From Thermodesulfobacteriota bacterium (GTDB lineage: Bacteria; Desulfobacterota; Desulfobacteria; Desulfobacterales; Desulfosudaceae): a stretch of 64,000 bases of DNA. The stretch covers positions 124,001-188,000 of the forward strand of contig JBFMDX010000001.1 of the NCBI GenBank assembly GCA_040753795.1. Reading direction: 5' to 3'. This document shows positions 7,290 through 64,000 of this stretch, piece after piece (positions within the stretch are counted from its first letter, which is position 1; every line of letters begins with the position of its first letter). Made by a program: the position numbers and the translations under genes. Under the pieces are notes generated by a model. The model made no database searches. It was not told the DNA's origin and saw only the letters and a list, made by a program, of their open reading frames with translations.

Positions 7290-7290
7290 A

Positions 7291-17992: not shown

Positions 17993-18478
17993 ATGAAAGA
18001 AGCGAGCGTTGAGGGGAACACTCTTCTGCCCCTGCCTTACGTGGACCTTACCCGCGGATTGACCGCCGCCATGATCGCCACGGGCGGCCTGATGCACGCC
18101 GCCGGTCTTTACGGTGCAGTCCGCGACAACCAGCCGGTCTTCTGGTGGGTCTGGATATTCTTCCTGTTCGCCATCCCCGGCTATCTGTTGGCCGCCGTCG
18201 CCCTCATCAACAATCGCCTGCCGGGGTTCATCATCGCCCTGGGCGCTCCGCCTGTCGGCGGATTTTTCATCCTGATCGGATTTTTGTGGCCGGAAACGGA
18301 GTTGCTACGTCTTATCCCCGGAACCTATGGCCATGAAATCCGGCTGATCGGCTTTGTCACGCTGATCTGCGAGCCGATCGCTGCCGTTCTGGCCGGCCAG
18401 CTGCTGCTGGCGAAAATGTTGACATCACCACCCGGCCTTGCTAATGATAAGGGCTCCGGAGTAAAAGCCATTCCGTAA
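17993..18478 (+). CDS. Small integral membrane protein
   Basis: I do not recognise this 161-residue protein. It has four probable membrane segments (LTAAMIATGGLMHAAGLYG, FWWVWIFFLFAIPGYLLAAV, FIIALGAPPVGGFFILIGFL and LIGFVTLICEPIAAVLAG). The ATG at 17993 has AAAGGGG upstream. The gene is divergent from the START-domain gene across an AT-rich gap and ends just before a family B repeat. Confidence 0.7.
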   Translation: MKEASVEGNTLLPLPYVDLTRGLTAAMIATGGLMHAAGLYGAVRDNQPVFWWVWIFFLFAIPGYLLAAVALINNRLPGFIIALGAPPVGGFFILIGFLWPETELLRLIPGTYGHEIRLIGFVTLICEPIAAVLAGQLLLAKMLTSPPGLANDKGSGVKAIP

Positions 18479-18486
18479 AGACAACA

Positions 18487-18627
18487 GGCATCTCTAAAAA
18501 TTAGAATTTTGGTTCGAGGTCAAGGCGGGCGATAATTTTAATCGGAGGAATACATTGAAGTATTTCGACGATTAAAATTTGAGCACAAAGCCGACACCGA
18601 GCCCAAAGGCAATTTTTTACAGGTGCC
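18487..18627. repeat. Long inverted-repeat element, family B
   Basis: The outer arms GGCATCTCTAAAAATT at 18487-18502 and AATTTTTTACAGGTGCC at 18611-18627 are imperfect reverse complements. The interior contains CAAGGCGGGC, then an 11-base perfect stem AATTTTAATCG with CGATTAAAATT around GAGGAATACATTGAAGTATT. The order AAGGCGG, GGAGG, ATAC-loop-GTAT, TCGACGA parallels the family A interior, so the two are probably related. Confidence 0.7.
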
Positions 18628-18699
18628 CAACATTAAAAAATCAGCAGTCCGGCCTGAAGATCCCGAGCCGCTGCGAGGTATTCACGATAGTGTGGTTTT

Positions 18700-21600
18700 A
18701 TGAAAAGAGCAGTCAGAATTCTCGTGCCCGGCCTGATCCTGCTGGGGGTTTTGCTTGTCGCCCTGCCCCACGCCATCAGCCTGAAACCGGTTCAGGTCGC
18801 CTTTAAATCAGCGCTTGACGTTCAATACGGCATCAAGGCTGATTTTGACAGGATCGCCTGGGAATGGTTTCCGTTTCCCCGGGTGTCTCTGTATCAGGCC
18901 AGGTTGTCCCATTCCCGCCTGGACGTTTCTTTTCCCCACGGTATTGTTTATCCGGATATCGTCGGGTTGATTAAATGGCAGTCCGCAGGCCGGATGATGC
19001 TGGAGCAGCCGGTGATCGTCGTCAAATCCCTGCGACCATCGGCGAACACCGAAGAAAAGAGCGGGGCAGTCCAGAAAACGCCGCCGCCATTTTTTTCCTT
19101 AAAGATCAAGGACGGTCATTTGCTGCTACCTGCCGACGGTTTTCTGGATAAGCTGGCGGCGCAGAAAACCCGTACGGAAATTACCGGAATCAACGCCGAC
19201 GTCCGGTTTCATCATGACGGTCTGATGGTAAAAACCGACGGCCGGTTTTCTTTTGCCGATCGTATTCTTTCCCAGGTCAGCGTGAAAAGGCAGCTTCAGA
19301 AAGAGACCGGCGTTCTGAAAAATTACTGGCGCCTGGACATCGACGGTGAAAATATCGACCTGACCCGGGCCCGGGATATTGTACTCCTGCTTTTCGGGGA
19401 GCACCGGGTCGCCCAAAAAGTATGTGATATCGTCAGGGGCGGCCGGGTGAAGGAAGGGCATTATGGGTTTACGGGGTATGCCGAGGATTTGAATCATCTG
19501 GAAGCCATGAAAATTTCGGCTCTGGCGGATGATGTCTCCATCCGCGTTCCGAAAATCGACCTTCCCATTGAACACGGCCGCGGTTCCGTGGTCATCGAAA
19601 ACGCCATCCTGAACGGGCAGGGACTGGCCGCCGGCCTGGGAAAGTCCACCGGTAAGAACGGCAGCTTCCGGCTGGGTCTTGGCCGGGATCCCGTTTTTCA
19701 GCTGGCCGTGGATGTGGACGCCGATCTGGATGAACTGCGCGGGTGGCTGGCCAACAATTTACTCAAGCATAAAGAGACGGTCGTCAACGAACTTCAGAAA
19801 ATAAGCAGCGTCAAAGGGCGGGCCAGGGGCCGCCTGGAAATCGGCGACGATTTGCATCACCTGGCAGTTAACGCCGACATCCTGTCATCGGACGGCCGGA
19901 TTGAGTATGGGCGCTTGCAGGAACCCATTTTATTCAAACGCGGCGATCTGACGATCTATCCCGACCGGCTGACCTGGGCAGGGGCTCAGGGCCAGATCGG
20001 ATCGCAACGGATTGATGACACCAGCGGCACGGTCTTTTGGAAAGAAAAGGTAGTGCTGGATATCGATGATATCGACGCCCGCCTGGACGCGGGTCCCTTG
20101 TTGAAGGAAGTTATCGCGTACCCGTCCGCCCGGCAAATTCTGGAGCCGGTGATCCGCTCCGTTTCCGGTCCGCTTCAGGTAAAAAAGGTGACGGTCCGGG
20201 GACCCATAACGGATATCAGCAAGCTGAACTATGACGCCACGGTCAGTACCGACGGGTTGACGATTGACTCTCCCCTCCTGCCGGGCGAAGCCCGGGTCAG
20301 GGTCTCGGACGCCCGGATCAGCAGCAAACGGATCGTTTTACCATCCATACCCTTGGACATGTCCGGCGAGCGGGTGACCCTGGAAGCCGATTTTTCGCAT
20401 ACGCTCTGGAAGACTTTTGCCGGAACCCTGACGGTTACCGGGACCGTCGAGCGGCAGACGGCTCAATGGATCAGGGGAAAGGGCTGGATTCCGGACATGG
20501 TTTTTCCCCGCTCTCCCTGCCAGGTGAAGCCGTTAACGATCGTCTTCAACGGAAAGGACGTCTCCCTGAACGGGACCATTGTATCCGGGCAGGGCGCCGA
20601 CAGCGTTACCAGCCGTCTGGATATGAACGTGGCCGAAGGCCGGGTGAATCTGAAGAAGGTGATCATCGCTTCGGCGGATGAAGCCGCCGAGGTCCGGCTG
20701 TCGCTTGACCGGCGCCGGTCTCCGGGCCTGACGGTGGGATTTTCCGGCAGCCTGCGGAAAAAGAGCCTGGATACGATCCTGGAAAACAACCGCTTTCTCA
20801 ACGGAAAAATTACCGGCGACTGCGAACTGGCCTATGATTTTTCCCATGCCTCCGCCCACCGGTTCAAGGGGAATCTGGAAGCATCGGGCAGCACCTTCTT
20901 CATCAAAGACAGCCGTATTACAATTAATAATACTGTAGTTTCCGGCCAGGACTCTTTTGTTGAGATCAAGAAGGCGGACCTTAACCTCAACGACGAATTT
21001 GTTTTTGTTGACGGGCGTGTTTACTTTCCGGATGACGCCGGGATCAGGACCGAACTGAACGCCAGATCGGGGTATATTTCAGTCGCCAATCTGAAGCGGC
21101 TGTCTAACGACTTAAAAAACCTGTTCAAAGAACGTGATGCCGCTTCTTCGTCTTCCTCCCCGTCTCCTTCACCGGCGTCTACAACACTGAGCGGTATGGC
21201 GGCGACGGGAACCATCAACTTTGACGTCAATATTTTTCAATACAACCCCGAGTCGGAGCCGTCGACGGCCCAGGCGATCATGGATTCAACGGCCAGGGAG
21301 TTCACCGGCCATGATTTAACCGGCACGATCAACCTGATGCAGCCGGGCAACCGGGTCTCCGTTTCCATTAATACCGGCAGCATCTGCGACGCCGCCATCT
21401 CCGGAATGGTTGGTCTGCCGCCGGAAAAGACCTTCCTGACGTTTCTGACCGGCGCCCGTGAAAAAAACGACGCCCAGCAGCTTCTGGACTGCCTGGGGAT
21501 AAAAGACAGAAAAATTTCCGGGGTGTATTCCCTTGACGTGGTCATCGAAGGGACGCCGGGTAGCTGGACCGGCGGTCATATCGACTTCCGGGTGAAAGAT

Positions 21601-48596: not shown

Positions 48597-48641
48597 TAAA
48601 AAATTCTACGACTGCAAAAAAATAAGCCGGAATAAATGTGC

Positions 48642-49340
48642 TCAGCCGGCGGCAAGAAACGGCGAAATCCCCAGATAAACCCCGAATCCCGCCATAAACA
48701 CGGCGCAGCAACCCAGGGTGGCATAATATACTTTCCGGTTCAGCCGGCGGATACCCCAGTAAGATAGGACCGAGACCAGCGCATACCAGGCCAGGTCACC
48801 GGCCTCATGGCCGATAAAAAAAGCAAAAAATCCGGAAAGGTTGTCGAAGGAGACGTTGAACTGCATCATGAAGGCGAAACCAATAGTGGCCCACCAGATC
48901 CACCAGTAGGGGTTGGACATGGATACCAGGGCGCCGCCGGTCACCGGGTGGCGGAGGGCCTTTTTGATCAGCGCCCGATTTTCCACGGCCTCGGGTTCGG
49001 GGGGCTCCCCGGTGAACTCATCGGGAATTTTTTCGCGGTACAGATCCCGGATAATCATCAAACTGAACATGACCAGCAGGGCGCCGCCGGTCAAACCGAT
49101 AATTTTAGCGGCGATATCTTTTTGAAGAACCATGGAAAAGCCGGCCAGCAGCAGGAGGATAATGGCCGCTTCGATCAGGGCATGGCCAACGATCACCCAT
49201 ACGCCCACCAGGTATCCCCGCTTACGGGTGCGGGCCGACTGGACGATGGTGTAGGTCAACAGGGGGCCCGGCGCCATGGCCCCGGTCAGGGCGACGACAA
49301 AGGAAAGAGACATGACGGTGAAGAAGGCCGATAAATCCAT
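48642..49340 (-). CDS. LysE-family translocator
   Basis: The 232-residue protein has the LysE exporter pattern: an N-terminal FVVALTGAMAPGPLLTYTIV with the conserved Gly-Pro-Gly-Pro region and six helices, with a short acidic loop (EFTGEPPEPEAVEN) in the middle. LysE-type proteins export amino acids or related small solutes. The start is taken at the ATG at 49340; a TTG nine bases earlier is possible. It is separately promoted and transcribed toward the thiolase operon. Confidence 0.85.
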   Translation of the reverse strand: MDLSAFFTVMSLSFVVALTGAMAPGPLLTYTIVQSARTRKRGYLVGVWVIVGHALIEAAIILLLLAGFSMVLQKDIAAKIIGLTGGALLVMFSLMIIRDLYREKIPDEFTGEPPEPEAVENRALIKKALRHPVTGGALVSMSNPYWWIWWATIGFAFMMQFNVSFDNLSGFFAFFIGHEAGDLAWYALVSVLSYWGIRRLNRKVYYATLGCCAVFMAGFGVYLGISPFLAAG

Positions 49341-49461
49341 ATGCTGCAACCGCCGGCGTATTTCAAGACGCCGGATTCATTTCCCGTTCTATCCACAATC
49401 ATGCGCTGACATTCATGGATAATCTGGAGAAACGGATGATAAATAGATGTTATGGCTTTTC

Positions 49462-49489
49462 CCTATAGCAAGATGGCTATTTTTGTCAA
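49462..49489 (-). promoter_or_regulatory. Sigma-70 promoter of the LysE gene
   Basis: TTGACA at 49484-49489 and TATAGG at 49462-49467 are spaced by 16 bases on the minus strand, about 120 bases before the LysE start. Confidence 0.65.
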
Positions 49490-50036
49490 TTCTTTTTCAG
49501 GTGCGGCACGTTGATGGACATTCTGGGAGAGATGGCCTGGCGATTCAAAAGAAACGGCGAGGGGTGTTTTCGCCTGGTGAAGACAGCGGCGGTATTCATT
49601 TTGGGTTATGACTATTTTCGGTCACCGTGGCCTTTTGCGAAAACCCCCGTCCGGCATCCTGTTGTCAGTTTGGTAGACCGTTGTCGAAAACGAATAAACT
49701 TAAGTCGGTAAAATTAATATTATATAAATATTTAAATGAATTTAGAATTATAACTGAATTTTTAAATGAATGCGCCGATCTGGTCGCCTACTTTTATAAC
49801 AAATTGAATTTTATTAAGAAATATAAATTCCTGCATATAATAAAGTATAGATTCTACTCAAAATACAATAAAACCCGGTCGGAAAAAAAAGAATGGTATA
49901 CAAAAAAAACAATAAAAATAATTGACTTTTTTTTTGAATAGGGAAAAATACAGGGCGGGGACAAATAGATAAACAATTTTCCGTAATTCACTATAAGGGC
50001 ATTAAGCTGCCCACCATTAACGATCGGGAGGGACGA
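49490..50036. other. AT-rich gap ahead of the pilus genes
   Basis: The sequence from about 49690 to 49960 is far more AT-rich than its surroundings and has no recognisable gene; a 104-codon plus-strand frame ends there but lacks a ribosome site. A weak promoter-like pair, TTGACT at 49922-49927 and AAAAAT at 49944-49949, lies near its end. In a usual minor-pilin cluster fimT and pilV would occupy this place, so the gap may mark replaced or lost DNA. Confidence 0.5.
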
Positions 50037-50927
50037 TTGGTTAGTGAGATCCTGTTTTCACGCCGTGGGTTGTTGCAGTCAGGTCGTTGGGGGGCAAGTA
50101 AAGGCTGCTCTTCCCTCCCTTTTAGCCCGTACGGTCGGGGTTGGCGGTCAGCATACTGTAAAAAAAGAAACAAGACCCATAACAAGCTGGACCAGGACGG
50201 CTTTTCTCTGGCGGAACTGCTGGTGGCGCTGGCGGTCGGCTCGATTGTTATCGTCCTGATAGTGACTGCCTACTGGTCTCAAACCAAGACCGGTCGGGCC
50301 CAGCAGATGATGGTGAATATGCAGCAGAATGGCCGCGCCGCCATGTTTCTTCTGACGCAGGATATCATGCTGGCCGGTTTCAGCGACGATCCTTCCAATC
50401 CTTCGGACGGAACCATAACCAACGCCGGTTCAACCACGCTGCAGTTTACCTATGCTGGTCAATACTTAATGGATGACAGAATCGACAATAACGGCGACGG
50501 CACGGTTGATGAAAAACACGAAAAGGACGGGGTCGACAATAACGGCGACGGCGATATTGACGAAATCAACGAACTTGAAACCATTCAGTATTCGCTGGAC
50601 GGAGATCGACTGCGGCGGACCCTGCTGGAAGATGCCACCGGCAATGTCCGGAGGACCGAAGTGGTCGCTAATGATATCGATCGGTTGGAGTTTTTTTATG
50701 TTTTAGATAATGGTGCTTCCGCCACCACCTATGCCAGTGATGATGATCGGGGAAATATTCGCAAGGTCGGTATATCCATCCTGACCCGAAGCGAGTTTGA
50801 GTCCCCCGGTTACACTGACACACAGGTCTACACTGCCCTGTCAGGAGCAAATTGGGGGCCGTTTAACGATCATAACCGGCGCGTATTGCTGACAACCACC
50901 GTCCAGTGCCGGAATATGTTGAGATAA
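50037..50927 (+). CDS. pilW: Type IV pilus minor pilin PilW-like protein
   Basis: The 296-residue frame contains the prepilin signature DGFSLAELLVALAVGS, followed by the hydrophobic N-helix and VNMQQNGRAAMFLLTQDIML. Cleavage would occur at G-F. Minor pilins of this type form the tip complex with PilX and PilY1. Two DNNGDG loops (residues about 150-170) are discussed separately. The start is odd: no ATG or GTG exists in frame within 54 residues before the pilin motif. The only candidate, TTG at 50037 after a GGGAGGG site, gives an unusually long leader, so the 5' end may be truncated. Confidence 0.8.
   Translation: MVSEILFSRRGLLQSGRWGASKGCSSLPFSPYGRGWRSAYCKKRNKTHNKLDQDGFSLAELLVALAVGSIVIVLIVTAYWSQTKTGRAQQMMVNMQQNGRAAMFLLTQDIMLAGFSDDPSNPSDGTITNAGSTTLQFTYAGQYLMDDRIDNNGDGTVDEKHEKDGVDNNGDGDIDEINELETIQYSLDGDRLRRTLLEDATGNVRRTEVVANDIDRLEFFYVLDNGASATTYASDDDRGNIRKVGISILTRSEFESPGYTDTQVYTALSGANWGPFNDHNRRVLLTTTVQCRNMLR
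50482..50552 (+). repeat. Duplicated DNNGDG metal-loop segment in pilW
   Basis: The 20 bases TCGACAATAACGGCGACGGC occur at 50482-50501 and again at 50533-50552. Each encodes IDNNGDG/VDNNGDG followed by VDE or IDE, an EF-hand-like calcium loop of the type found in dockerins and thrombospondin type 3 repeats. The loops lack Cys but otherwise mirror the DNDCDG-x-x-DEGC ends of the MopE units in the PilY1-like protein. Confidence 0.75.
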
Positions 50928-50957
50928 CGAAAAAAACTAAATATGGGGGGGGCAATC

Positions 50958-51518
50958 GTGATCAGTATATTTTCACGCATTGGTAATCAGAAGGGCTCGG
51001 TCATCGCCATCGCCCTTATGGTCATGATGACGCTGCTGATTGTCGGTCTCATGTCAATCAACGATACAATCGTGGAAAGCGCCATTGCGCGTAACCACAC
51101 CATTCACCGGCAGAATTTTTACCTTGCGGAAGCCGCTGTCCGGCAGGCGGCCCAGTTAATAGAGGACTATAGAGACGACCCGTCAGTCGTAGGCGAGTTG
51201 ACGGCGCGGCCCAGAGAGCTCCCCTGGATGCGGCACAAACTGGACTTTGACTTTGGAGCGGATGTCGATTTTGGTGATTTCCGGGGCGACGGCGGCTACA
51301 TAGATTACGGATCTTTCGTGCCGACCATGCTGGCCAACGGCAATGAAAACGCCTCGGGTTTCATGGCCAGGTATGAAGGCCCTGCCTCTGGGGTTCCTAT
51401 AGATATGAATGAACCCACCAACGTGTATCAGTTTTCCGTGTACGGCCGGGGGGTTGGGCCCACGAGAAATGACGCTGATGAAGTCGTGGTAAAGATCGGT
51501 TACAGGGTGCGGTTTTAG
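50958..51518 (+). CDS. pilX: Type IV pilus minor pilin PilX-like protein
   Basis: The 186-residue protein has the PilX N-terminus: short leader ending QKG, then SVIAIALMVMMTLLIVGLMS and the helical NFYLAEAAVRQAAQLIEDYR. PilX is a tip pilin that links PilW and PilY1. A GTG at 50958 with GGGGG upstream gives a normal 13-residue leader; the ATG at 50943 lacks a site. The remainder is a compact globular part with many acidic residues (DFDFGADVDFGDFRGDGG). It lies 15 to 31 bases from pilW and 71 bases from the PilY1-like gene. Confidence 0.82.
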   Translation: MISIFSRIGNQKGSVIAIALMVMMTLLIVGLMSINDTIVESAIARNHTIHRQNFYLAEAAVRQAAQLIEDYRDDPSVVGELTARPRELPWMRHKLDFDFGADVDFGDFRGDGGYIDYGSFVPTMLANGNENASGFMARYEGPASGVPIDMNEPTNVYQFSVYGRGVGPTRNDADEVVVKIGYRVRF

Positions 51519-51589
51519 ACGGAGAAAAAGGCGTCCGGATTAAGCGGGTGACAGAAAACGACAGGGGGAAAACAAACTTGGAACATAAC

Positions 51590-54500
51590 ATGAATGCTAA
51601 AGAAATCAGACATGTTTCTATGGGCTCGTTTTCAGGCATCAAATCAGCCCGCGCGCGTTTAACAAAACCAATTCTGTTTTTGCTGGTCCTGCTGGCTCTG
51701 GATCTGTTTCTGGCAACCGCGGTCATGGCCGCTCGCTTTTATCGAGACGCTGACAGTGATGGCTATGGAAATCCTTCTGTTTATGTGGATAGACGCATAA
51801 GGCCGTCAGGATATGTCACCAACAGCGATGATTGCAATGACGCTAACAGCGCCATTCATCCGGGAGTCCAGGACGTATGTGACAGCGTTGATAATGACTG
51901 TGACGGCACCACAGATGAAGGCTGCGTGACCTGGTATCGGGACAGCGACAACGATTTACACGGCAACCCGGCTGTATCCACGGTTTCCCTGGTTCAGCCG
52001 GCCGGCTATGTTGTCGACAATACGGATTGTGATGACACCAACAGCGCGGTTTTTTCTGGCGCTACGGAATTTTGCGACACGTTGGATAATGACTGCGACG
52101 GCAGCACGGACGAAGGCTGCGTCCCCTGGTACCGCGATCTGGACGGGGACGGGTACGGCAATCTCAATGTCTCCCAAACGGCTAATTCCAGGCCACCCGG
52201 CTATGTGGCTGATTCCAGCGACTGCAACGATAGCGATGCCGCCATTTTCCCAGGCGCGACGGAAGTGTGCGACGGCAAAGATAACGACTGCGACAGTAGC
52301 GTGGATGAGGGATGTCAATCCTGGTACCAGGATGGCGACGGAGATGGTTACGGCAATCCCGCTATTTCCCAGCAGGCTGTCGGCCAGCCGGCTGGTTTTG
52401 TTTCCGGCAATACGGATTGCGATGACGCTGATGCCGCTATAAACCCGGGGGCGGCGGAGGTCTGCGATACCGGGCACAAGGACGAGAACTGCAACGGTTT
52501 AGCCAACGAAGGGTGCCAGACCTGGTATCAGGACGGCGACGGCGACGGTTACGGCAACGCCGCTGTATCTGTATCAGCCTTTGCTCAGCCCGCCGGTTAC
52601 GTCGGGAACAGCACGGATTGTGATGATACCGACGCAGGCTCACATCCCGGCGCCCTGGAGGTTACCGGCGACGGTCATGATAACGACTGCGACGGTGAGA
52701 CGGATGAAAGCCTGGTCTGGTATTGGGACGGCGACGGAGACGGTTACGGCGATGCCGCGAACACCAGCGTTGTGGCCGCGCCGGGTTATGTGCTGAACAA
52801 CATGGATTGCGATGACACCAACGCCGCCGCCAACCCGGGGGCAACCGAAGTATGCGACAATGTGGACAATAATTGCAACGGTGTTACGGACGAAGGGTGC
52901 CAGATTTTTTATCACGACAATGACCATGACGGTTATGGCGATCCGGCCGCTTCGGTGGCGGACACTAACCTGCCGGCCGGGTATGTGAACAGCGGGACGG
53001 ACTGTGATGACAGTGACGCCGCCGTTAATCCTGACGCATTTGAAGTATGTGCCGACAGCAAGGATAATGACTGTGACGGAACCACAGATGAAGGGTGCCA
53101 GCTCTGGTACGTTGACAATGACGGCGACGGCTTTGGTAACCCTGCAGTTTCTGTTTCGGCTTCTGTACAACCAACCGGGTACGTGGGTGCGGGTACGGAC
53201 TGCGACGATACCAATGCCGCCATTTCCCCCGGCGCCCGGGAAGTATGCGACGAAGTGGACAACAACTGCAACGGGTTTGTGGACGAGGGTTGTATCCAGA
53301 GATGGTATCAGGACAATGACGGCGACACTTTTGGCAACCCGGCCGTTTCGTATACCGGTGAAAAGCGGGACGGTTATGTGCTTGTCCCCGGGGATTGTGA
53401 TGATACCAGAATCAGCATCAATCCCGATGCGCCGGAAGTATGTAATGATGGTATTGATAATAACTGCGCCGGAGGAGTGGATGAGGGTTGCCTTGAATGG
53501 TATCTGGATGCCGATGGCGACACATATGGAAATCCGGGCGTTTCGGTCAATGCGGTTGAACAACCGGCCGGTTTTGTGGCCGATAGCAGCGATTGTAATG
53601 ACAGCAATGCCGCCGCTCATCCCGGTGCCGAGGAAGCCTGCGACGGAATGGACAGCGATTGCGACGGGTCTATAGACGAGGGCTGCCAGGCCTGGTATCA
53701 GGACGCGGACGGCGACGGGTATGGAAATCCGGCGGTTTCCACTGAAGCCATAATGCAGCCTGCCGGTTATGTCAATAACGACGATGATTGCGATGATACC
53801 AAGGCCTCCATCAATCCCGGGGCGGAGGAGGCTTGCGATGACGGTGAGGATAACGACTGCGACGGCAGTACTGATGAAGGCTGCATGACATGGTATCAGG
53901 ATGCGGACGGTGATACCTTTGGTAACCCCGATGTCTCCGACAATACCGGTGACCAGCCAGCCGGGTATGTGGAGAGAGCCGGTGATTGTGACGATACCAG
54001 AGCCGATATAAACCCTGATCAGGCGGAAGTCTGCGATGACGGAACTGACAATAATTGCGCCGGCGGTGTGGATGAAGGCTGCGTCCGGTGGTACCGGGAC
54101 AATGACGGCGATACCTTCGGTACTGCCGATTACGTGATGGCTATCGGGCAACCGGCCGGTTTCGCAGCCCGGAGCGGTGACTGCAACGACGCCAACGCCG
54201 CCGTCAATCCTGATGCCACTGAGATATGCGATGGCATCGATAACGACTGTGACGGCGATCGGGATGAAGGCTGCGTCCGGTGGTATCGGGACAGTGATGA
54301 CGATACCTATGGTGACCCGGCCGTTTCTTTCGAATCCGTGAGCCAGCCGGCCGGTTTCGTTGGCATGGCCGGTGACTGTAACGATACTGACGCCGCTATT
54401 CATCCCGGTGTGGCGGAAGTCTGTGATGGCGGCGACAACGACTGTGACGGTATCGTGGACGAAGGCTGCATGCTCTGGTATCGGGACGCGGACGGAGATA

Positions 54501-57500
54501 CTTACGGCGATGCCGGAGTCTCCAGCAATGCCAATGCGCAGCCGGCCGGATACGTCAACGGCAATACCGACTGCGACGATACCAGCGCTGCTGTAAATCC
54601 GGGCGCTCCGGAAGTCTGCGGCGACGGGATTGATAACAACTGCTCCGGCGATGCGGACGAAGGCTGTCTGACCTGGTACAGGGACGCTGATGGTGACGGT
54701 TACGGTAATCCCGGCGTGTCCACCGTGTCCAGCACTCAGCCGGCCGGATTTGTCAGGGACGGCATGGATTGCGATGACACCGATTCGCTCGTTCATCCCG
54801 GAGCCGTGGAAGTCTGCGATGGAATTAAGGATGATAACTGCGACGGCGCCGTGGATGAGGGCTGTGTTGCCTGGCATCAGGACGCCGACGACGATGGTTA
54901 CGGTAACGCGGCGGTTTCCATGATTTCCATTGCCCAGCCGGCCGGATACGTGCTTGACCGGACGGATTGCGATGACACTAACGCCGCCGTGAACCCTGGG
55001 TTGACGGAAGTGTGCGATGACGGCCTGGACAACAACTGCGCCGGCGGTGTTGACGAGGGCTGTCTGACTTGGTATCAGGACGCCGATGGAGATCATTACG
55101 GCAATGCCGGCGTGTCTATCACGGCCATCACGCCGCCAGCCGGTTATGTGTTCGACCGGACGGATTGCGATGACGGCGATCCCGGTGTCCATCCCGGCGC
55201 GATGGAAGTTTGTGACGGCCTGGACAACAACTGCGCCGGCGGTACGGACGAAGGCTGCCTGGCCTGGTACCGGGACGCCGACGGTGACAATTACGGTAAT
55301 GCCGGCGTGTCCATGACCTCTCTCACCCAGCCGCCCGGCTACGTGCCTGATAACACCGACTGCAATGACGCCAATCCCGGCGTGAACCCCGGCGCCGCGG
55401 AGATCTGCGACTCCTGGGCCAATGACGAAGACTGTGACGGTAGCTGGGACGAGAACTGCCAGTGGTGGTATCAGGATGCCGACGGCGATAATTACGGCAA
55501 TAACGCCATCTGGCTGGTGTCCCAGACCGCGCCTCCCGGGTATGTCCTGGACTGGAAGGACTGCGATGACACCAATCCCGCAATCAATCCCAGTGCCGTG
55601 GAAATCTGCGGTGACGGTCTGGACAACAACTGTAACTGGAACATAGATGAAGGCTGCGTGACCTGGTATCAGGACGGCGACGGTGATAATTATGGCAACT
55701 CCGCCGTGTCAGTGGTATCCGAAACCCAGCCGGCCGGTTATGTAATGGACGGCACGGACTGCGATGATACCGATCCGTTGATTCATCCCGGCGCTACGGA
55801 AGTCTGTGATGGTATTAATGACGAGGATTGCGACGGCGCCGTGGATGAGAGATGCCTGGTCTGGTACCAGGACGGCGACGGTGACGGCTACGGCAATGCC
55901 GGGGTCACCCTCACGGCCGTTGATCAGACGGGCGGTTACGTGGCCGTGGCCGGCGATTGCGACGACACTAATCCGGGAGTAAACCCCGGCGTCGCGGAGG
56001 TGTGCGGTGACGGACTGGACAACAACTGCGACGGCGGCACGGACGAAGGCTGCCTGGTTTGGTACCAGGACAGTGACGGCGACAATTACGGCAATGCCGG
56101 CGTTTCCCAGTCGGCCGCCTATCAGCCTCCCGGATTTGTCCCCGACAATACCGACTGCGACGACACCAATCCGCTGAAGAATCCCGGCATGTCGGAAAAG
56201 TGCGGGGACGGTATTGACAATGACTGCGACGGCAATATTGACGACATAAGTTGTGTTAACTGGTTCAAGGATGTGGACGGCGATACCTACGGTGATCCCA
56301 CCCAGACCACCATGGCTGTCGGACAGCCGGCTGGCTACGTCTCTCGGGCCGGTGACTGTGATGATGGCAACGCGGCCGTCAATCCTGGCGTTCCGGAAGT
56401 GTGCGGTGACGCCATCGACAATAATTGCAATGGGAGCCAGGACGAAGGCTGCGTGATCTGGTACCAGGACGGCGACGGCGACAATTACGGCAATGCCGGG
56501 TCTTTTGTCACGTCTATTATTCAGCCGCCGGGGTATGTGCCGGACAGTACCGACTGCGATGACGGCAATGCCGCTGTCAATCCCGGTCAGACGGAGGTTT
56601 GCGGGGACGGCCTGGACAACGACTGCGCCGGCGGCGCCGACAACGGCTGCCAGACCTGGTATCAGGACGGCGACGGTGATAATTACGGCAACCCCAGTGT
56701 CTGGATTGTCTCCGTCACCAGGCCGCCCGGATACGTGGAAGACCGGACGGATTGTGATGACGCCAATCCGGCCGTCCATCCCGGCGCCCAGGAGGTCTGC
56801 GACAACTGGATGACCGATGAAGATTGCGACGGGGTGTGGGACGAGGGCTGCCAGGGGTGGTGTCAGGACGCCGACGGTGACACCTTCGGTAATAGTGCCG
56901 TCTGGGTCAACGCCATGGTCCGACCGCCCGGTTATGTCTACGACTGGAACGACTGCGATGATACCAATGCCGCCATTCATCCCGGGGTTCCGGAGTTGTG
57001 CGACGGCATCGACAATAACTGCAACTGGTGGACGGACGAGACCTGCGTGACCTGGTATGAAGACGCGGACGGCGACAATTATGGCAACTCCGCCGTATCC
57101 GTGGTGGCCATTGTCCAGCCGGCCGGTTACGTGGCGGACGGCACGGACTGCGACGACACCAATGCCGGTGTCAATCCCGGCATGGCGGAGGTGTGCGCGG
57201 ACGGTCTTGACAATGACTGCTTCGGCGGCGCGGACAACGGCTGCCTGACCTGGTATCCGGATAGCGACGGTGATAATTTTGGCGGTCCCGGTGCCCCCAT
57301 GGACGCCATTGTCCAGCCGGCGGGCTATGTGTCCGACGACACGGACTGCGACGATACCAACACCGCCGTCCACCCGGGCGCCATGGAAGTGTGCGGGGAC
57401 GGTCTGGACAACGATTGCCTCGACGGTGCGGATAACGGCTGCCTGACCTGGTATCAGGACAGTGACGGTGACAATTACGGCAATGCCGGTGTTGCCCTGG

Positions 57501-60500
57501 CGACCGTCATTCAACCCCCGGGCTATGTGTCCGACGGCACGGACTGCGACGACACCAATGCCGGCGTCAATCCCGGCATGGCGGAGGTGTGCGGGGACGG
57601 TCTTGACAACGACTGCGCCGGCGGCGTGGACGACGGCTGCCAGGTCTGGTACCTGGACAATGATAGTGATAGTTACGGAGACCCGGCGGTTTCCACCCAG
57701 TCCGCTATCCGGCCGGCCGGGTACGTAAGCAACAACATGGATTGTGATGACGCCAGGGCTTTTGTCAATCCCGGCGCGACGGAAATTTGCGACGGCATTG
57801 ATAATAACTGTGTCGGCGGTATCGATGAGGGCTGCACGGCTTGGTATCGAGACAATGACGGTGACAATTTCGGCTCCGCCGTTTCCACCCGGGCAGATCT
57901 CCAGCCGGCCGGTTACGCAGCCCTGCCGGGTGACTGTAATGACGCTAATGCCGCTATTAATCCCGGCGTTACGGAGGTCTGCGGCGACGGCGTTGATAAC
58001 GATTGTGACGGCGGTCTGGACGAAGGGTGCGTCCGATGGTACCGGGACAGTGACGGCGACGCCTATGGCGACCCGGCCGTCTCTGTCGATGCCGTGAGCC
58101 AACCGGCAGGGTATGTCGCTGCCGGAACGGATTGTGATGATAATGATGCCGCCGTCAATCCCGGTGCCGTGGAAGTCTGTGATGGTGTTGATAATGATTG
58201 TGACGGCGGTCTGGACGAAGGGTGTGTGGCCTGGTACCAGGATAATGATGCTGACGGTTACGGTAATGACGCCGTCACCACGATAGCCGTCACTCAGCCG
58301 GCCGGATATGCCGGCAGAGGCGGAGACTGCAATGACGCTGACACCGCCGTCAATCCCGCCGCCGTTGAAATCTGCGACGGCGCGGACAACGACTGTGACG
58401 GCAGAGCCGACGAAGGGTGCGTGGCCTGGTACCAGGACCTTGACGGCGACACTTACGGTGATTCCGCCATTGCTGTCACCGCCGTTCTGCAACCGCTCGG
58501 TTTTGCGGCCAGAGACGGAGACTGTGAGGACAGTAATGCCGCCGTCAATCCCGGCGTAACCGAAGTCTGTGGTGACGGGGTTGATAACGACTGTGACGGC
58601 AGCGCCGACGAAGGGTGTATTACCTGGTATCAGGACCTCGATGGCGACAATTACGGCCTGCCGGGCGCTGTCATCGAAGCCGTTACCCGGCCGGATGATT
58701 ACACCGACAGGGGCGGGGATTGCAATGACGCCGATAGCGACGTAAATCCCGGAGTGGCCGAAGTCTGTGACGACGGTATTGACAATGACTGTGACGGATC
58801 GCAAGACGAGGGCTGCGCTGACTGGTATCAGGATAATGACGGCGACGGTTACGGCTCCGTCCACACTATTTCTGATTTTACCCGGCCGCCCGGGTACGTG
58901 GCGGTCCCCGGCGACTGTAACGACGCCGATGCTGCCATTCATAAAGGAGTGAGGGAAACCTGCGATGGTATTGATAATGACTGCGACGGCGCCGTAGACG
59001 AAGGTTGTATCTTCTGGTATCAGGACCTTGATGGCGATAAATTCGGAAACCCCGAGGTTTACATCAAAGAGGTTTCTCAGCCTGCCGGTTACGTGGCCGC
59101 CGGCGGTGATTGTGATGACGCCAATCCCGCTATCCGTCCCTTTGTGCTGGATCTGTGCGATCATCTGGATAATGACTGCGACTTTGCTTCCGATGAAGAT
59201 GTCCCCAAGGAAGATTATAAGAAGACTTATCAGGATTATGACGGCGACGGATACGGTAATCCCGGCGTCTATGTGGAAGATTGCATGCTGGATGTCGGTT
59301 ATGTCATAGACGCCAGCGATTGTAACGACAAAGATGCGGATGTTCATCCCGAAGCCTTTGATGTTTGCGACAACGGTATTGACGAGGACTGCTCCGGAGC
59401 AGACCGTCCCTGCGGCACGACCGCGACCCGGGGCTGCGCGAATATAGCCGCCGTCCCCCTGGAAACCCAGGTGGATTCCGCGCCGCCCATTGTCATGCTG
59501 CTGCTGGATAACTCCGGGAGCATGTCGTGGAATGTCATGTGCCCAGGGGAGGCGGACGGGCTTTACAAGGGTTACTCCGACTGCACCACGGGAAATAATG
59601 AATACTGGCAGGCCCAATATTCGGGGAAAAATACGATTTATTACAACCCGAATGTGGAATACACGCCCTGGCCGAATTATTCGAACGCGAACAAACAGAG
59701 GCCCAGACAACACCCGGATGCGTCACCGACCACGGACCTGGACAGTAAATTTGAAACCTTCAGCGGAGCAGGCGGGATTGACGTCAAGGTAGCCCATTAC
59801 TATGCCTGGTCCTCAACCGAACAGAGACCCTATTTGGTGTTTGTCAACAATTCCAGCGTAACTTATTACAGGATCAATCCACCGGCGGACAATGAACTGG
59901 ATGCCAACCATGTCACCGGACCGGTGGCGGCGTCAGCGGTTCCGAATGACGCGATTATTCCCCAGGCCTGGAAGGATGGCAACCGGGAGTGCTCGGCGGC
60001 TGAAGCGGATGCCGCGCGGCAGAATTTTGCCAACTGGTACCAGTACTACCGCACCCGCATGCTGACGGCCATCAACACGCTGGTCTCGGTGGTGTCAAAT
60101 GTTTCGGGCATCAAGCTCGGCGTTACGACTATCAACGTCAATTCCGCCAGCGGCTTCTTCGAGCCGGTTCTGGTGGATGACAAGGTCGACACTGCCAGCG
60201 GCCACGACGGCCCCGCCAACCGGCAGAGCGTTATCGACTTTATCCTTGAATCCGGCGTACCCAACGGCGGTACGCCTCTGCTGCGGACGTATCGATCTCT
60301 CGGCGATTATTTTGATAATGCCGCTCACGACAGCAGGCCTTCCCCATGGGCCAGCGAGGAGGAAGGGGGCGAATGCCAGATGGCATTCATTATTTTGATG
60401 ACGGATGGCTATTACAATGGGGCCAATCCGGGCATCGATGACGAGGATGGTAATCAGAACACCGCCTTTGACGGCCCCCCCTTTGCCGACGCTTATGGCC

Positions 60501-62878
60501 AGGGTGACACGCTGGCGGATATGGCCATGTATTATTATGAGAGGGATCTGGCGACGGAACTGGATGATAACGTGCCCACCACCGCCAACGACACGGCCCG
60601 TCATCAGCACGTCGTTACCTACAGTATTTCTTTCGGTGTCATCGGTACCCTTGATCCAAAGGCATATGCTTTTAATTCGAGTTCGACTGGCTGTCTTTCC
60701 GGAGCAACCTGCACGGCGGCGGCGCCATGCAATTGCGTACCCTACTGGCCGTATATCCCCCAGAAAGATGAGGGATGCCTCGAGAAGATCGACGACCTGT
60801 ACCATGCCTCGGTTAACGGACGGGGAAAATATTTTGCCACCTCCAACGTCCGGCAGTTATCGTATGCCTTGTCGACGATTTTAAATGAAATTTCAGATCG
60901 CCGGGGATCGGGCGCGTCGGTGGCGGTCAGTACCCAGGAGTTGACGGAAGATACCCAGCTTTACCGCGCCTTTTTCAATACTTCCGGCTGGTTCGGGGAA
61001 CTGGGCAGCTGGAAGATCAATCTGGATGGCTCCATAAACCCCACCCCCACCTGGCTGGCCGCAGGACTTCTGGATGCACGGGATTTAAGCGCCGATCCGC
61101 GGACTATATTCACCTATAATCCGGACGTACCCAGCGGTGTGCCCTTTGAACTGGGCAATCTGTCTCCCGAACAGAAAAAGTTTCTGGGAACCACTGACGG
61201 AGAACGGCAACGGCTGATCGATTTTCTGAAAGGCGACCGCTCGCAGGAGGAGCATAATGGCGGCCCTCTGCGCGATCGTGTCTCCCGTTTGGGCGATATC
61301 GTCCATTCAGCGCCGGTGCACGTTATGTACGCAGACGGTAATGACTACCTTTACGTCGGCGGTAATGACGGCATGCTTCATGCGTTTGACGCCGCGTCTA
61401 CAAGTGACGGTGGGCAGGAAGTATTTGCCTATATCCCGAGTCTTGTGTACGAAAATCTGGCCTACCTGTCTGATCCCGATTACAGACACCGGTATTACGT
61501 GGATACAACCCCCTTTATAGACTCGACAGGGCTGCTGATCGGCGGTCTGGGAGCGGGCGGCAAAGGCTATTTTGCCCTGGATGTGACCAGTCCCGGGACT
61601 TTCAATTCCAGCGACGTGTTGTGGGAGTACCCTCCCGGCATTGACAACGATATGGGTTTCTCCTTTGCCAAACCGATTGTCGTGCCGCACCAGTATGGAC
61701 GATTGGCGATTTTCGGCAACGGTTATGACAGCAAGAACGGCCGGGCCGTGCTGTATGTTCTCACGCTGGATGCCAACAACGCCATCGTGGAAGTGAGGAA
61801 GATTGACACCCTGGCCGGAAGCCAGTCCGGAGATCCGGAGGTTACCACGGGCTGTAACGGCCTCTCTTCTACCATGGCCGCGGATGTCAATTATGATAAT
61901 CTGCTGGACTTTATCTATGCCGGCGATATGCAGGGTAACCTGTGGAAATTTGATCTGACCGCCCCGACGTCGTTAGGCTGGAAGGTCGCCTATGGCACGG
62001 CCGAGGCCCCTCAACCGTTGTTTAAAGCCGAGTATGAAGGCGTCCCGCAGCCAATTTATGCCAAGCCAAGCGCCATGCGGCACTGCCTGGCCAATCGCGA
62101 GGGCTATATCGTGGTCTTCGGCACCGGCAAGTTTTTTGCGCAAGGCGATCACCAGGACACTTCGCAGCAGACGATCTACGGCGTCTGGGACTGGGCCGAG
62201 GAACTGGAAACCGGCGACATCGTCGATCCGAAAAACTATCCGCTGGGTGCCCCTTCACGGAAGACCGACTACGCCGAGTTGCCGGTCCTGCTGGGCGGAT
62301 CTTCTCCGGTTACCTTCGCCCTGCAGGGGCAGTCCGCTGGAAGCGTGTCCGGTATTTTCAGCGAAACCTCTGCAATCAAACTGTATGACAAGTACAAAGA
62401 CCCCAATGGCATTCCCAACGACGCAGACGACCAGCGGGCCTGGTTTGACGCCGACACCTGGCAAGCCAATGGCGCCGGTTATACCGGCGTCAGGTATGCA
62501 GGCTGGTATTTAGATCTGCCCAATACCGGCGAACGCGTTATCGCCGATACCACCATCCGTTCCGGTCTGGCCATCATGGTTTCGCTGGATCCTTCTCCGG
62601 CGCCCTGCAAGCCCGGCGGTAACTCCTTTCTGATGCTGGTACGGGCCTGCGACGGAAGCAATCCGGAAGAAGAGGTGCTGGACACCAATGATGACGGTGT
62701 TATTGATGACAAGGACGATGGCAGTAATCGCGAAGAACTGCCTGATATTGTTTACAAGCCGGTTTTTGTTGAAGGAGATAACACAAAGATGTTTTTCGAC
62801 GAAAAGAAAGGCAAAGAACCTCCTTCAGAGCATCTTGGCGTGGCTTACTGGCAATTTTTAAGAGTCCTGCATGAATGA
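51590..62878 (+). CDS. pilY1: Giant PilY1-like pilus-tip adhesin with 39 MopE-type repeats
   Basis: About 3,760 residues. After a signal peptide (KPILFLLVLLALDLFLATA) come 39 tandem units of about 65 residues (51731-59413), each with DGDGYGNPAVS, QPAGYV, DCDDTN, NPGATEVCDG and DNDCDGTTDEGC type segments; this is the putative metal-binding MopE motif. A VWA-like region follows (MLLLDNSGSMSW, ending about 60870). The PilY1 beta-propeller comes last (GDIVHSAPVHVMYADGNDYL, YVGGNDGMLHAFDAAS, GAGGKGYFALDVTSP), with an EF-hand-like DTNDDGVIDDKDD near the end. PilY1 with minor pilins primes pilus assembly and binds surfaces; ordinary PilY1 is about 1,000 to 1,200 residues. The start is uncertain: GTG 51548, TTG 51578 or ATG 51590. 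Confidence 0.88.
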   Translation: MNAKEIRHVSMGSFSGIKSARARLTKPILFLLVLLALDLFLATAVMAARFYRDADSDGYGNPSVYVDRRIRPSGYVTNSDDCNDANSAIHPGVQDVCDSVDNDCDGTTDEGCVTWYRDSDNDLHGNPAVSTVSLVQPAGYVVDNTDCDDTNSAVFSGATEFCDTLDNDCDGSTDEGCVPWYRDLDGDGYGNLNVSQTANSRPPGYVADSSDCNDSDAAIFPGATEVCDGKDNDCDSSVDEGCQSWYQDGDGDGYGNPAISQQAVGQPAGFVSGNTDCDDADAAINPGAAEVCDTGHKDENCNGLANEGCQTWYQDGDGDGYGNAAVSVSAFAQPAGYVGNSTDCDDTDAGSHPGALEVTGDGHDNDCDGETDESLVWYWDGDGDGYGDAANTSVVAAPGYVLNNMDCDDTNAAANPGATEVCDNVDNNCNGVTDEGCQIFYHDNDHDGYGDPAASVADTNLPAGYVNSGTDCDDSDAAVNPDAFEVCADSKDNDCDGTTDEGCQLWYVDNDGDGFGNPAVSVSASVQPTGYVGAGTDCDDTNAAISPGAREVCDEVDNNCNGFVDEGCIQRWYQDNDGDTFGNPAVSYTGEKRDGYVLVPGDCDDTRISINPDAPEVCNDGIDNNCAGGVDEGCLEWYLDADGDTYGNPGVSVNAVEQPAGFVADSSDCNDSNAAAHPGAEEACDGMDSDCDGSIDEGCQAWYQDADGDGYGNPAVSTEAIMQPAGYVNNDDDCDDTKASINPGAEEACDDGEDNDCDGSTDEGCMTWYQDADGDTFGNPDVSDNTGDQPAGYVERAGDCDDTRADINPDQAEVCDDGTDNNCAGGVDEGCVRWYRDNDGDTFGTADYVMAIGQPAGFAARSGDCNDANAAVNPDATEICDGIDNDCDGDRDEGCVRWYRDSDDDTYGDPAVSFESVSQPAGFVGMAGDCNDTDAAIHPGVAEVCDGGDNDCDGIVDEGCMLWYRDADGDTYGDAGVSSNANAQPAGYVNGNTDCDDTSAAVNPGAPEVCGDGIDNNCSGDADEGCLTWYRDADGDGYGNPGVSTVSSTQPAGFVRDGMDCDDTDSLVHPGAVEVCDGIKDDNCDGAVDEGCVAWHQDADDDGYGNAAVSMISIAQPAGYVLDRTDCDDTNAAVNPGLTEVCDDGLDNNCAGGVDEGCLTWYQDADGDHYGNAGVSITAITPPAGYVFDRTDCDDGDPGVHPGAMEVCDGLDNNCAGGTDEGCLAWYRDADGDNYGNAGVSMTSLTQPPGYVPDNTDCNDANPGVNPGAAEICDSWANDEDCDGSWDENCQWWYQDADGDNYGNNAIWLVSQTAPPGYVLDWKDCDDTNPAINPSAVEICGDGLDNNCNWNIDEGCVTWYQDGDGDNYGNSAVSVVSETQPAGYVMDGTDCDDTDPLIHPGATEVCDGINDEDCDGAVDERCLVWYQDGDGDGYGNAGVTLTAVDQTGGYVAVAGDCDDTNPGVNPGVAEVCGDGLDNNCDGGTDEGCLVWYQDSDGDNYGNAGVSQSAAYQPPGFVPDNTDCDDTNPLKNPGMSEKCGDGIDNDCDGNIDDISCVNWFKDVDGDTYGDPTQTTMAVGQPAGYVSRAGDCDDGNAAVNPGVPEVCGDAIDNNCNGSQDEGCVIWYQDGDGDNYGNAGSFVTSIIQPPGYVPDSTDCDDGNAAVNPGQTEVCGDGLDNDCAGGADNGCQTWYQDGDGDNYGNPSVWIVSVTRPPGYVEDRTDCDDANPAVHPGAQEVCDNWMTDEDCDGVWDEGCQGWCQDADGDTFGNSAVWVNAMVRPPGYVYDWNDCDDTNAAIHPGVPELCDGIDNNCNWWTDETCVTWYEDADGDNYGNSAVSVVAIVQPAGYVADGTDCDDTNAGVNPGMAEVCADGLDNDCFGGADNGCLTWYPDSDGDNFGGPGAPMDAIVQPAGYVSDDTDCDDTNTAVHPGAMEVCGDGLDNDCLDGADNGCLTWYQDSDGDNYGNAGVALATVIQPPGYVSDGTDCDDTNAGVNPGMAEVCGDGLDNDCAGGVDDGCQVWYLDNDSDSYGDPAVSTQSAIRPAGYVSNNMDCDDARAFVNPGATEICDGIDNNCVGGIDEGCTAWYRDNDGDNFGSAVSTRADLQPAGYAALPGDCNDANAAINPGVTEVCGDGVDNDCDGGLDEGCVRWYRDSDGDAYGDPAVSVDAVSQPAGYVAAGTDCDDNDAAVNPGAVEVCDGVDNDCDGGLDEGCVAWYQDNDADGYGNDAVTTIAVTQPAGYAGRGGDCNDADTAVNPAAVEICDGADNDCDGRADEGCVAWYQDLDGDTYGDSAIAVTAVLQPLGFAARDGDCEDSNAAVNPGVTEVCGDGVDNDCDGSADEGCITWYQDLDGDNYGLPGAVIEAVTRPDDYTDRGGDCNDADSDVNPGVAEVCDDGIDNDCDGSQDEGCADWYQDNDGDGYGSVHTISDFTRPPGYVAVPGDCNDADAAIHKGVRETCDGIDNDCDGAVDEGCIFWYQDLDGDKFGNPEVYIKEVSQPAGYVAAGGDCDDANPAIRPFVLDLCDHLDNDCDFASDEDVPKEDYKKTYQDYDGDGYGNPGVYVEDCMLDVGYVIDASDCNDKDADVHPEAFDVCDNGIDEDCSGADRPCGTTATRGCANIAAVPLETQVDSAPPIVMLLLDNSGSMSWNVMCPGEADGLYKGYSDCTTGNNEYWQAQYSGKNTIYYNPNVEYTPWPNYSNANKQRPRQHPDASPTTDLDSKFETFSGAGGIDVKVAHYYAWSSTEQRPYLVFVNNSSVTYYRINPPADNELDANHVTGPVAASAVPNDAIIPQAWKDGNRECSAAEADAARQNFANWYQYYRTRMLTAINTLVSVVSNVSGIKLGVTTINVNSASGFFEPVLVDDKVDTASGHDGPANRQSVIDFILESGVPNGGTPLLRTYRSLGDYFDNAAHDSRPSPWASEEEGGECQMAFIILMTDGYYNGANPGIDDEDGNQNTAFDGPPFADAYGQGDTLADMAMYYYERDLATELDDNVPTTANDTARHQHVVTYSISFGVIGTLDPKAYAFNSSSTGCLSGATCTAAAPCNCVPYWPYIPQKDEGCLEKIDDLYHASVNGRGKYFATSNVRQLSYALSTILNEISDRRGSGASVAVSTQELTEDTQLYRAFFNTSGWFGELGSWKINLDGSINPTPTWLAAGLLDARDLSADPRTIFTYNPDVPSGVPFELGNLSPEQKKFLGTTDGERQRLIDFLKGDRSQEEHNGGPLRDRVSRLGDIVHSAPVHVMYADGNDYLYVGGNDGMLHAFDAASTSDGGQEVFAYIPSLVYENLAYLSDPDYRHRYYVDTTPFIDSTGLLIGGLGAGGKGYFALDVTSPGTFNSSDVLWEYPPGIDNDMGFSFAKPIVVPHQYGRLAIFGNGYDSKNGRAVLYVLTLDANNAIVEVRKIDTLAGSQSGDPEVTTGCNGLSSTMAADVNYDNLLDFIYAGDMQGNLWKFDLTAPTSLGWKVAYGTAEAPQPLFKAEYEGVPQPIYAKPSAMRHCLANREGYIVVFGTGKFFAQGDHQDTSQQTIYGVWDWAEELETGDIVDPKNYPLGAPSRKTDYAELPVLLGGSSPVTFALQGQSAGSVSGIFSETSAIKLYDKYKDPNGIPNDADDQRAWFDADTWQANGAGYTGVRYAGWYLDLPNTGERVIADTTIRSGLAIMVSLDPSPAPCKPGGNSFLMLVRACDGSNPEEEVLDTNDDGVIDDKDDGSNREELPDIVYKPVFVEGDNTKMFFDEKKGKEPPSEHLGVAYWQFLRVLHE
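51731..59413 (+). repeat. Array of 39 MopE-type coding repeats
   Basis: By reading the protein I count 39 units averaging 197 bases, with the unit ending in an EGC-like triplet. Most units keep four Cys: DCDD, E-V/I-CDG, DNDCDG or DNNCAGG, and DEGC. The units are diverged at both DNA and protein level, with segmental similarities. Units 5, 19-21, 26-28 and 38-39 depart from the pattern. Confidence 0.9.
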
Positions 62879-62933
62879 TCGGGCGATGGCGGTGGCCGCC
62901 CCTGAGCGCGGTTTGGTTTTTTAAGGAGATACG

Positions 62934-63269
62934 ATGAAAAAAGGCATGCTTATTGTGATAATGATGGCGATGATACTGGCGCCCCTGGCGCTGCCGGCGG
63001 AGGAATCGGTGCCCGCTGATCCGCTGATGGGGGCCGTGGAATTCGGTACCCAGGAAGAGCCCGAACTGGTCTGGAAGTCCGGGCGAATCGATTCGATCAA
63101 TGACAACGGCATGGTTGTCGATGACGCCGGCTACAGGTTTTCTACTGATATTAAATATTATAGTGAAAGCGGTGTGCGATTGACACGGTTGAATTTTTCA
63201 CCGGGAACGCCCGTTAAATTTGTTCTGAAAAAGGACCTTGTCACCGTGGTCGCGCTGGTGAAGATATGA
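62934..63269 (+). CDS. Small secreted protein downstream of the PilY1-like gene
   Basis: The 111-residue protein has a signal peptide (GMLIVIMMAMILAPLALPA) followed by a mature region of about 90 residues with beta-type segments (WKSGRIDSINDNGMVVDDAG, TPVKFVLKKDLVTVVALVKI). I do not recognise a family, but small secreted proteins in this position commonly belong to the pilus operon. AAGGAG before the ATG and a 55-base gap suggest co-transcription. It might help anchor or process the adhesin, which is inference. Confidence 0.75.
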   Translation: MKKGMLIVIMMAMILAPLALPAEESVPADPLMGAVEFGTQEEPELVWKSGRIDSINDNGMVVDDAGYRFSTDIKYYSESGVRLTRLNFSPGTPVKFVLKKDLVTVVALVKI

Positions 63270-63314
63270 CCGGAAGTAATATATAAAAAAATCCGGCCAA
63301 TAAAAATAATCGGT

Positions 63315-63857
63315 CTAAAACCGCTCATAATGGGTGAATTCGGCTATTTCCCGGCGTTTGGGCGCGCTGGCCGGTTTGGCCGGATAGCCTAAAGGAATCA
63401 TGGTCACCACTTCATATCCTCCCGGAACGCCGAGAATTTCCTGAATCTTGTTATGATCAAACAGACCCATGACCACCGCGCCTAAACCCATGTCCTGGGC
63501 CTGAAGGCAGATGTTCTGGGCGGCAATGCCGATGTCAAACATGAACCAGTCGCCGAACTTGGTGGTGACCACATCTTTGTAGTATCCGGAACTCTTCAGT
63601 TTGGCGCAAAGCACCAGTACCACCGGCGCCGCGGACACGGCTTTCTGGGCCGGATTTCCCTTCAGGACCGCTTCGCTGAGCTGGTCCTTGATCTGCTGTC
63701 CCCGGACCACGATCACTTCCCAGCACTGGGTGTTGGCCCAGGATTGGGACCATTGCACGGCCTCCAGCAACTCCTTAACGACCGCCTCCGGAACATCCTT
63801 CTCTTCGTATTTTCTGATACTTCTTCTGTTCTTAATGGCTTCCATGACAGCGCCCAT
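63315..63857 (-). CDS. Nitroreductase-family flavoprotein
   Basis: The 180-residue protein is a compact nitroreductase: AIKNRRSIRKYEEKDVPEAV, WANTQCWEVIVVRG, AQNICLQAQDMGLGAVVMGL and VVTMIPLGYPA. It lacks the dimer extensions of larger relatives. AAAGGAGATT precedes the ATG at 63857. The upstream frame to 63917 is leader without a site. It is the second nitroreductase of the window and is not closely similar to the one at 46307-47044. Substrate unknown. Confidence 0.9.
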   Translation of the reverse strand: MGAVMEAIKNRRSIRKYEEKDVPEAVVKELLEAVQWSQSWANTQCWEVIVVRGQQIKDQLSEAVLKGNPAQKAVSAAPVVLVLCAKLKSSGYYKDVVTTKFGDWFMFDIGIAAQNICLQAQDMGLGAVVMGLFDHNKIQEILGVPGGYEVVTMIPLGYPAKPASAPKRREIAEFTHYERF

Positions 63858-63894
63858 GACAATCTCCTTTTTATGTTTTCCTGCCTTGCGGCGG

Positions 63895-64000
63895 TTATAC
63901 CAGACGGCCTCTTTCAATATATTCCACGTCTTCCACTTCGATGGCCCGGACGATGTGCCGGTTCATGCGGCGTTTCATTTCGCCCACGGTTTTTCTGTCC
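63895..64000 (-). CDS. 3' end of a gene running off the window
   Basis: The minus strand is open from the window edge to a TAA at 63895-63897. It encodes about 34 residues, including KTVGEMKRRMNRHIVRAIEV and DVEYIERGRLV. The stretch is charged and helical and ends 38 bases before the nitroreductase start, so the two are likely co-transcribed. No family can be named from this fragment. Confidence 0.55.
   Translation of the reverse strand, partial: DRKTVGEMKRRMNRHIVRAIEVEDVEYIERGRLV

Follow-up and report, generated by a model that had tools for sequence, protein, structure and literature searches.

The locus raises the question of what a type IV pilus tip protein does with dozens of tandem MopE-type units, and of what those units bind. 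In the window (the whole 64,000-nt stretch of DNA that we analyzed), a giant pilY1 gene on the + strand at 51590..62878 encodes a 3762-residue protein with a signal peptide, 39 MopE-type units, a VWA-like region and a PilY1 propeller. The frame is open from a GTG at 51548 (3776 aa) to the stop at 62878 with no internal stop codon, and the ATG at 51590 is its likely start (3762 codons). The signal peptide, read from the sequence, spans residues 1-47 (51590..51730, + strand) and ends in ATAVMA ahead of ARFY. Directly behind it, with no terminal domain in front, the array runs from 51737 to 59422 (+ strand), with unit 1 at 51737 and unit 39 at 59225. A Pfam search returned 39 PF11617 stretches (1233 bits), all above the curated cut-off in the genome scan, and an independent split and alignment of the array likewise gave 39 units, of 63-70 residues each, which bears out the 39 acidic, Cys-rich units of about 65 residues described by the first-pass annotation. 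Within about 2560 residues the array holds 155 Cys, 21 His and 566 Asp+Glu versus 62 Lys+Arg, for a computed charge of about -503 at pH 7.

The signal peptide and propeller that the same annotation had placed on either side of the array are both present. The beta-propeller (PF05567, E = 3.8e-43) lies C-terminally at 61346..62194 (+ strand) and is matched by P. aeruginosa PilY1 (PDB 3hx6, E = 4.3e-55). The VWA domain that it had also named stands less firmly: Pfam reported no VWA family in this protein at E up to 10, but a MIDAS-like motif, PPIVMLLLDNSGSM, can be read at 59483..59524 (+ strand), with LLLDNSGSM at about residues 2632-2645. We call this region VWA-like because of that motif and because the homologue of Desulfococcus sp. 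4484_241 matches VWA_2 weakly, below the threshold (E = 0.0056).

As had been noted, two minor pilin genes directly precede pilY1: a pilW-like gene at 50037..50927 (+ strand; PF16074 7e-7, N_methyl 5.6e-6), whose true start may lie further inside the annotated frame, and a pilX-like gene at 50943..51518 (+ strand; PF14341 2.7e-7). Directly behind pilY1 is a gene for a 111-residue small secreted protein (62934..63269, + strand). The same genome carries a sister giant pilY1 on contig 16 (5016-18311, + strand, of segment 40500-60000), encoding 4431 residues with 49 MopE units, in a fimT-pilW-pilV-pilX-pilY1-small protein operon. The window operon is without fimT and pilV, which both the contig 16 copy and relatives have, and it looks like a reduced copy. 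Between the two operons, the PilY1 cores are 64% identical, the PilW proteins 56%, the PilX proteins 56-62%, and the small secreted protein is 49-51% identical to the product of the gene behind the contig 16 pilY1 (18373-18726 of the segment). The small protein has no match in Pfam or NCBIfam; its relatives also occur downstream of pilY1 in other genomes, it is conserved at this place in several Desulfobacterota, and it is possibly a partner in the tip complex.

Both PilW proteins carry two acidic loops of the DNNGDGxVDE type (contig 16 pilW at 3026-3778 of the segment); in the window pilW these read DNNGDGTVDE...DNNGDGDIDE at 50460-50580 and resemble calcium loops, as if this minor pilin too had calcium sites. 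Elsewhere the genome encodes type IV pilus machinery, namely PilM, two PilT-family ATPases and 17 prepilin-like signals. It also encodes a third PilY1-like protein of about 1000 residues without MopE units (contig 3:20347-20601), with its own prepilin cluster close by (contig 3:23167-24692). Contigs 20, 11, 21, 5 and 9 encode several more proteins, secreted or lipoprotein-like, that bear a few MopE units apiece, and some of these proteins have glycine-rich lipobox-like starts. The host is probably a sulfate reducer, since its genome holds a dsrB above the family cut-off.

Upstream of the pilW-pilX-pilY1 operon, at 49845..49863 (+ strand), we identified a 19-bp element, GTATAGATTCTACTCAAAA, with the core dyad TAGA-T-TCTA. 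An identical second copy lies upstream of the sister operon (contig 16:43021-43039), and with 2 mismatches allowed these are exactly the two copies in the 4.75-Mb genome. In 60 runs with simulated upstream regions the longest common stretch was 12 bp, versus the 19 bp observed. The flanks of the element are poorly conserved. Its distance to the annotated start of pilW in the window is about 174 nt, and to fimT in the sister operon 31 nt. We read the element as a putative regulatory site, and the two giant pilY1 operons are apparently co-regulated; it is possible that the element is a leftover of the duplication. An Rfam search over 48600-64000 of the window returned nothing.

Comparison of the two arrays gives a view of their history. 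In a tree, the two giant cores are sisters (SH-aLRT 100), nested among MopE-bearing PilY1s of 2-7 units. Units 1-18 of the window and sister arrays, compared in register, have a mean identity of 66.9% versus 58.1% when permuted, and none of 20,000 permutations reached 66.9%. Unit 5 lacks both Cys 2 and Cys 4 in the two giants, and the last three units of the arrays also pair. The long array therefore predates the gene duplication. After it, the middle of the array was altered through local duplications, for example at sister units 22 and 23, which share 95% DNA identity.

The number of window units is unlikely to have collapsed or expanded during assembly, because no exact repeat within the gene exceeds 33 bp and the two most alike units are 81% identical in DNA. 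Mismatches between units fall mainly on the third base of codons (0.53 per site, versus 0.32 and 0.29 at the other two), a codon pattern that shows purifying selection on the array protein. The 88 units of the window and sister arrays agree without exception at eight positions of the alignment: Asp 4, 6, 8, 42 and 45, Gly 11, and Cys 43 and 69.

Long antisense ORFs overlie the arrays, at 52640-55192 (- strand, 850 aa) and 55709-59713 (- strand, 1334 aa) in the window and as an 1827-residue frame in the sister. We judge them to be probably a by-product of codon usage in the acidic repeat and not genes.

An array this long on a PilY1 had been put forward as undescribed. To place the pair, we compared PilY1 frame lengths among the matches listed, best first, for the class (389 genomes) and the phylum (395 genomes). 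The giants, at 3798 and 4463 aa from one stop codon to the next, are the longest among these, followed by frames of 2820 and 2664 aa, and PilY1s of 30 or more units are thus not common within the phylum among the matches listed; no other giant was found in GTDB contigs among the best 80 of 568 matches. Many PilY1s of the class do carry MopE units, at 1-7 per protein in those examined (2 in Desulfoluna, 4 in Desulfococcus sp. 4484_241, 7 in Desulfamplus sp.). The MopE-bearing PilY1s cluster in the tree, together with some unit-less members, and the giants fall among members with 2, 4 and 6 units. What stands of the novelty claim is hence the extreme size of 39 and 49 units, whereas the architecture is widespread in the class and the 49-unit sister sits in the same genome; the giant pair is the extreme form of a known kind. 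Searches of open-access papers turned up no MopE-PilY1 or giant PilY1.

Domains ahead of the units vary among relatives. The N-terminal part of Desulfoluna limicola PilY1 is DUF1349/concanavalin-like, and two long relatives carry Calx-beta domains ahead of their MopE units. The 2820-residue frame (2032-10491 of its segment) has seven Calx-beta domains and a LapA-like stretch followed by two MopE units, and would represent another long calcium-type PilY1 extension. In type IV pili, the variable part that faces ligands is recognized to be the N-terminal region of PilY1, whose roles are poorly understood. Here the variable region is a tandem array under selection, five- to sevenfold longer than any in the other MopE-PilY1s examined, and the natural length series of 2, 4, 6, 7, 39 and 49 units lets one ask whether length alters reach, adhesion or force response.

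The Pfam name of the motif, Cu-binding_MopE, points to copper, and the first-pass annotation envisaged a metal-loaded surface fiber. We dropped copper as the leading reading after mapping the match onto MopE. On the MopE crystal construct, the match to the unit covers chain residues 14-44 only (14-77 with a single-sequence query). Cu(I) in MopE is bound by residues 130 (kynurenine), 132 and 203, and the crystal structure does not show residues 1-46 (PMC3423442). The copper site of MopE/CorA proteins (kynurenine/Trp130, His132, His203) thus falls outside the stretch matched by the unit, which weakens the case for a copper-loaded fiber. Calcium shields MopE* from proteolysis, and MopE* that has lost its first 24 residues, which include Asp-rich sequence, is no longer retained on a Cu(II) column (PMC3423442); the motif may have a weak Cu(II) role. 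PF11617 has also been called unspecific in a published remark (PMC6189053).

The units themselves fit calcium. Every unit has a DxDxD loop (Asp 4, 6 and 8, with Gly 11), and none of the 88 units departs from the first-loop aspartates, the DC.D stretch or the third Cys, a spacing that resembles a calcium-loop pattern. When the unit profile was run against PDB sequences, the only family near significance besides MopE was acyloxyacyl hydrolase (E = 0.007), a protein described as calcium-binding (PMC12898756). Foldseek searches against PDB and BFVD gave no significant fold match, and acyloxyacyl hydrolase was the only protein among the weak PDB matches (E of 4 or worse). No thrombospondin type 3 profile appeared when two array segments were compared with Pfam with E allowed as high as 10. 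We consider it more likely that the PF11617 motif is a calcium and disulfide module than a copper binder, in which case its name is misleading.

The roughly 150 cysteines had been proposed to form disulfides or metal thiolates, and their distribution bears on the choice. Across 12 related proteins, the next unit has an extra linker Cys in 19 of 21 cases where Cys 4 is missing, versus 5 of 85 where it is kept (Fisher 2e-14, a significance inflated by rows that are related and not independent). Taken with unit 5, which has lost both Cys 2 and Cys 4, this swap suggests a bond between Cys 2 and Cys 4 within a unit or, in relatives, between Cys 2 and the linker Cys of the unit that follows, which would join neighboring units; Cys 1 would then pair with Cys 3 by elimination. 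The pairwise pattern favors disulfides and disfavors the thiolate reading. Structure prediction, which had been suggested for one to three units, was confident for two: an AlphaFold model of 130 residues from 32 sequences reached pLDDT 96.9 and pTM 0.77 with little regular secondary structure, as would be expected for calcium-loop modules. Window triplets, with a shallower alignment, gave a three-unit model with pLDDT 49, which was set aside, and a four-unit alignment was left out, its overlapping rows having appeared to slip register.

Where the array would sit follows from modeled tip complexes of Myxococcus, in which the C-terminal propeller rests on PilX and the N-terminal PilY1 domain is the ultimate tip (PMC13190605). 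By analogy, the array would project outward beyond the VWA-like domain as the outermost, free-ended part of the tip. The suggestion that it forms a stalk lifting the propeller therefore finds no support, since in these models the propeller docks on PilX and the N-terminus is outermost. 

The explanation that we favor, and hold to be somewhat better than an even bet, is a type IVa pilus tip PilY1 whose calcium-loaded, disulfide-locked array makes contact. The ancestral N-terminal extension would have been a few MopE-type units ahead of the VWA-like domain, which tandem duplication then expanded to dozens in this lineage, and a later duplication of the whole operon would have yielded the 39- and 49-unit versions. 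Each unit would fold around calcium in its DxDxD, DCDD and DNDCDG..DE loops and be locked by two disulfides. Upon export into calcium-containing medium, the array would become a protease-resistant, strongly acidic, semi-rigid fiber that lengthens the pilus tip and touches first, with the propeller on PilX and the N-terminus outward. Because the free end bears no binding domain, contact would most likely be the work of the array itself, through polyvalent, calcium-bridged interactions with mineral or polysaccharide, such as a surface or the polysaccharide of a partner, of the VWA-like domain at the base of the array, or of both; contact by the array is our own reading. A stronger form, in which the calcium-assembled, disulfide-stapled fiber is itself the adhesive tip, unit number sets its reach, and the 39- and 49-unit proteins are a matched pair under a common control element, we regard as possible but doubtful.

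The same features could be read in other ways. That the array is a pure spacer or length ruler, its unit number tuned (39 versus 49) and itself free of ligand contact, would suit several relatives, in which the units separate a terminal domain from the VWA-like domain, and the occurrence of Calx-beta domains instead of MopE units on other PilY1s of the class, as if any calcium-stiffened repeat would do. We think it unlikely, as no domain was found at the free end of either giant array, leaving nothing distal to lift if the N-terminus points outward. Calcium is reported to regulate PilY1 in Pseudomonas and Neisseria and to raise the mechanical stability of the Pseudomonas protein (PMC13190605), so the array could instead be a calcium-sensing mechanical element, a force buffer or switch that acts via the VWA-like domain on surface sensing or on extension and retraction, and not an adhesin; the known control involves one propeller site and not a tandem array, and this role seems rather improbable.

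A fiber that holds copper or another soft metal at Asp/Cys sites, for metal capture or electron transfer, has in its favor the Pfam name, the fact that MopE itself is a copper protein, and the need for the Asp-rich first 24 residues of MopE* in Cu(II)-column retention (PMC3423442). Its prospects are slim given the position of the Cu(I) ligands outside the matched stretch, the mere 21 His in about 2560 array residues, a Cys pattern that fits disulfides, and the published remark on PF11617 (PMC6189053). Scarcely credible, finally, is a drifting expansion or assembly artefact without function: tandem arrays do grow readily, and the sister array shows recent duplications at units 21-23 and 34-37, but the longest exact repeat is 33 bp, the frame is open throughout, substitutions concentrate at third positions, and the two arrays are conserved in register and have the 19-bp element in common.

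Set against known PilY1/PilC adhesins, the window protein shares with Pseudomonas aeruginosa PilY1 and Myxococcus xanthus PilY1.3 the C-terminal propeller (PF05567, 3hx6), a preceding MIDAS-like motif and adjoining pilW and pilX, and differs in its N-terminal extension of about 2560 residues and 39 repeats within a total of 3762. Among myxobacterial PilY1s, the highest clade median is 41 Cys (PMC13190605), compared with 155 in the window array alone. The MopE-bearing PilY1s of Desulfobacterota (Desulfococcus sp. 4484_241, Desulfoluna, Desulfamplus sp.) are nearer: they form one tree clade with the giants, have the same order of MopE units, VWA-like region and propeller and, in the closest cases, the same operon, but with 1-7 units against 39 and 49, and most have the extra N-terminal domain that the giants lack. 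MopE of Methylococcus capsulatus shares the PF11617 motif, secretion and calcium stabilization, whereas its copper site lies in another part of the protein, it is not a pilus protein, and the crystallized form has no long array. Acyloxyacyl hydrolase (PDB 5w78-5w7f), whose crystal structure reportedly holds structural calcium ions, has one GY..DCND..VYPG..D..DSNCNG stretch like a unit, but as a single copy in a mammalian lipase, and the match is weak with homology unproven. Thrombospondin type 3 repeats and other DxDxDG calcium modules also set acidic loops in tandem; the type 3 repeats differ from the array units in length and Cys pattern. In RTX adhesins, whose extender arrays likewise present tandem acidic loops and are stiffened over great length by linker calcium (PMC7493085), the repeats are beta-sandwiches exported by type 1 secretion.
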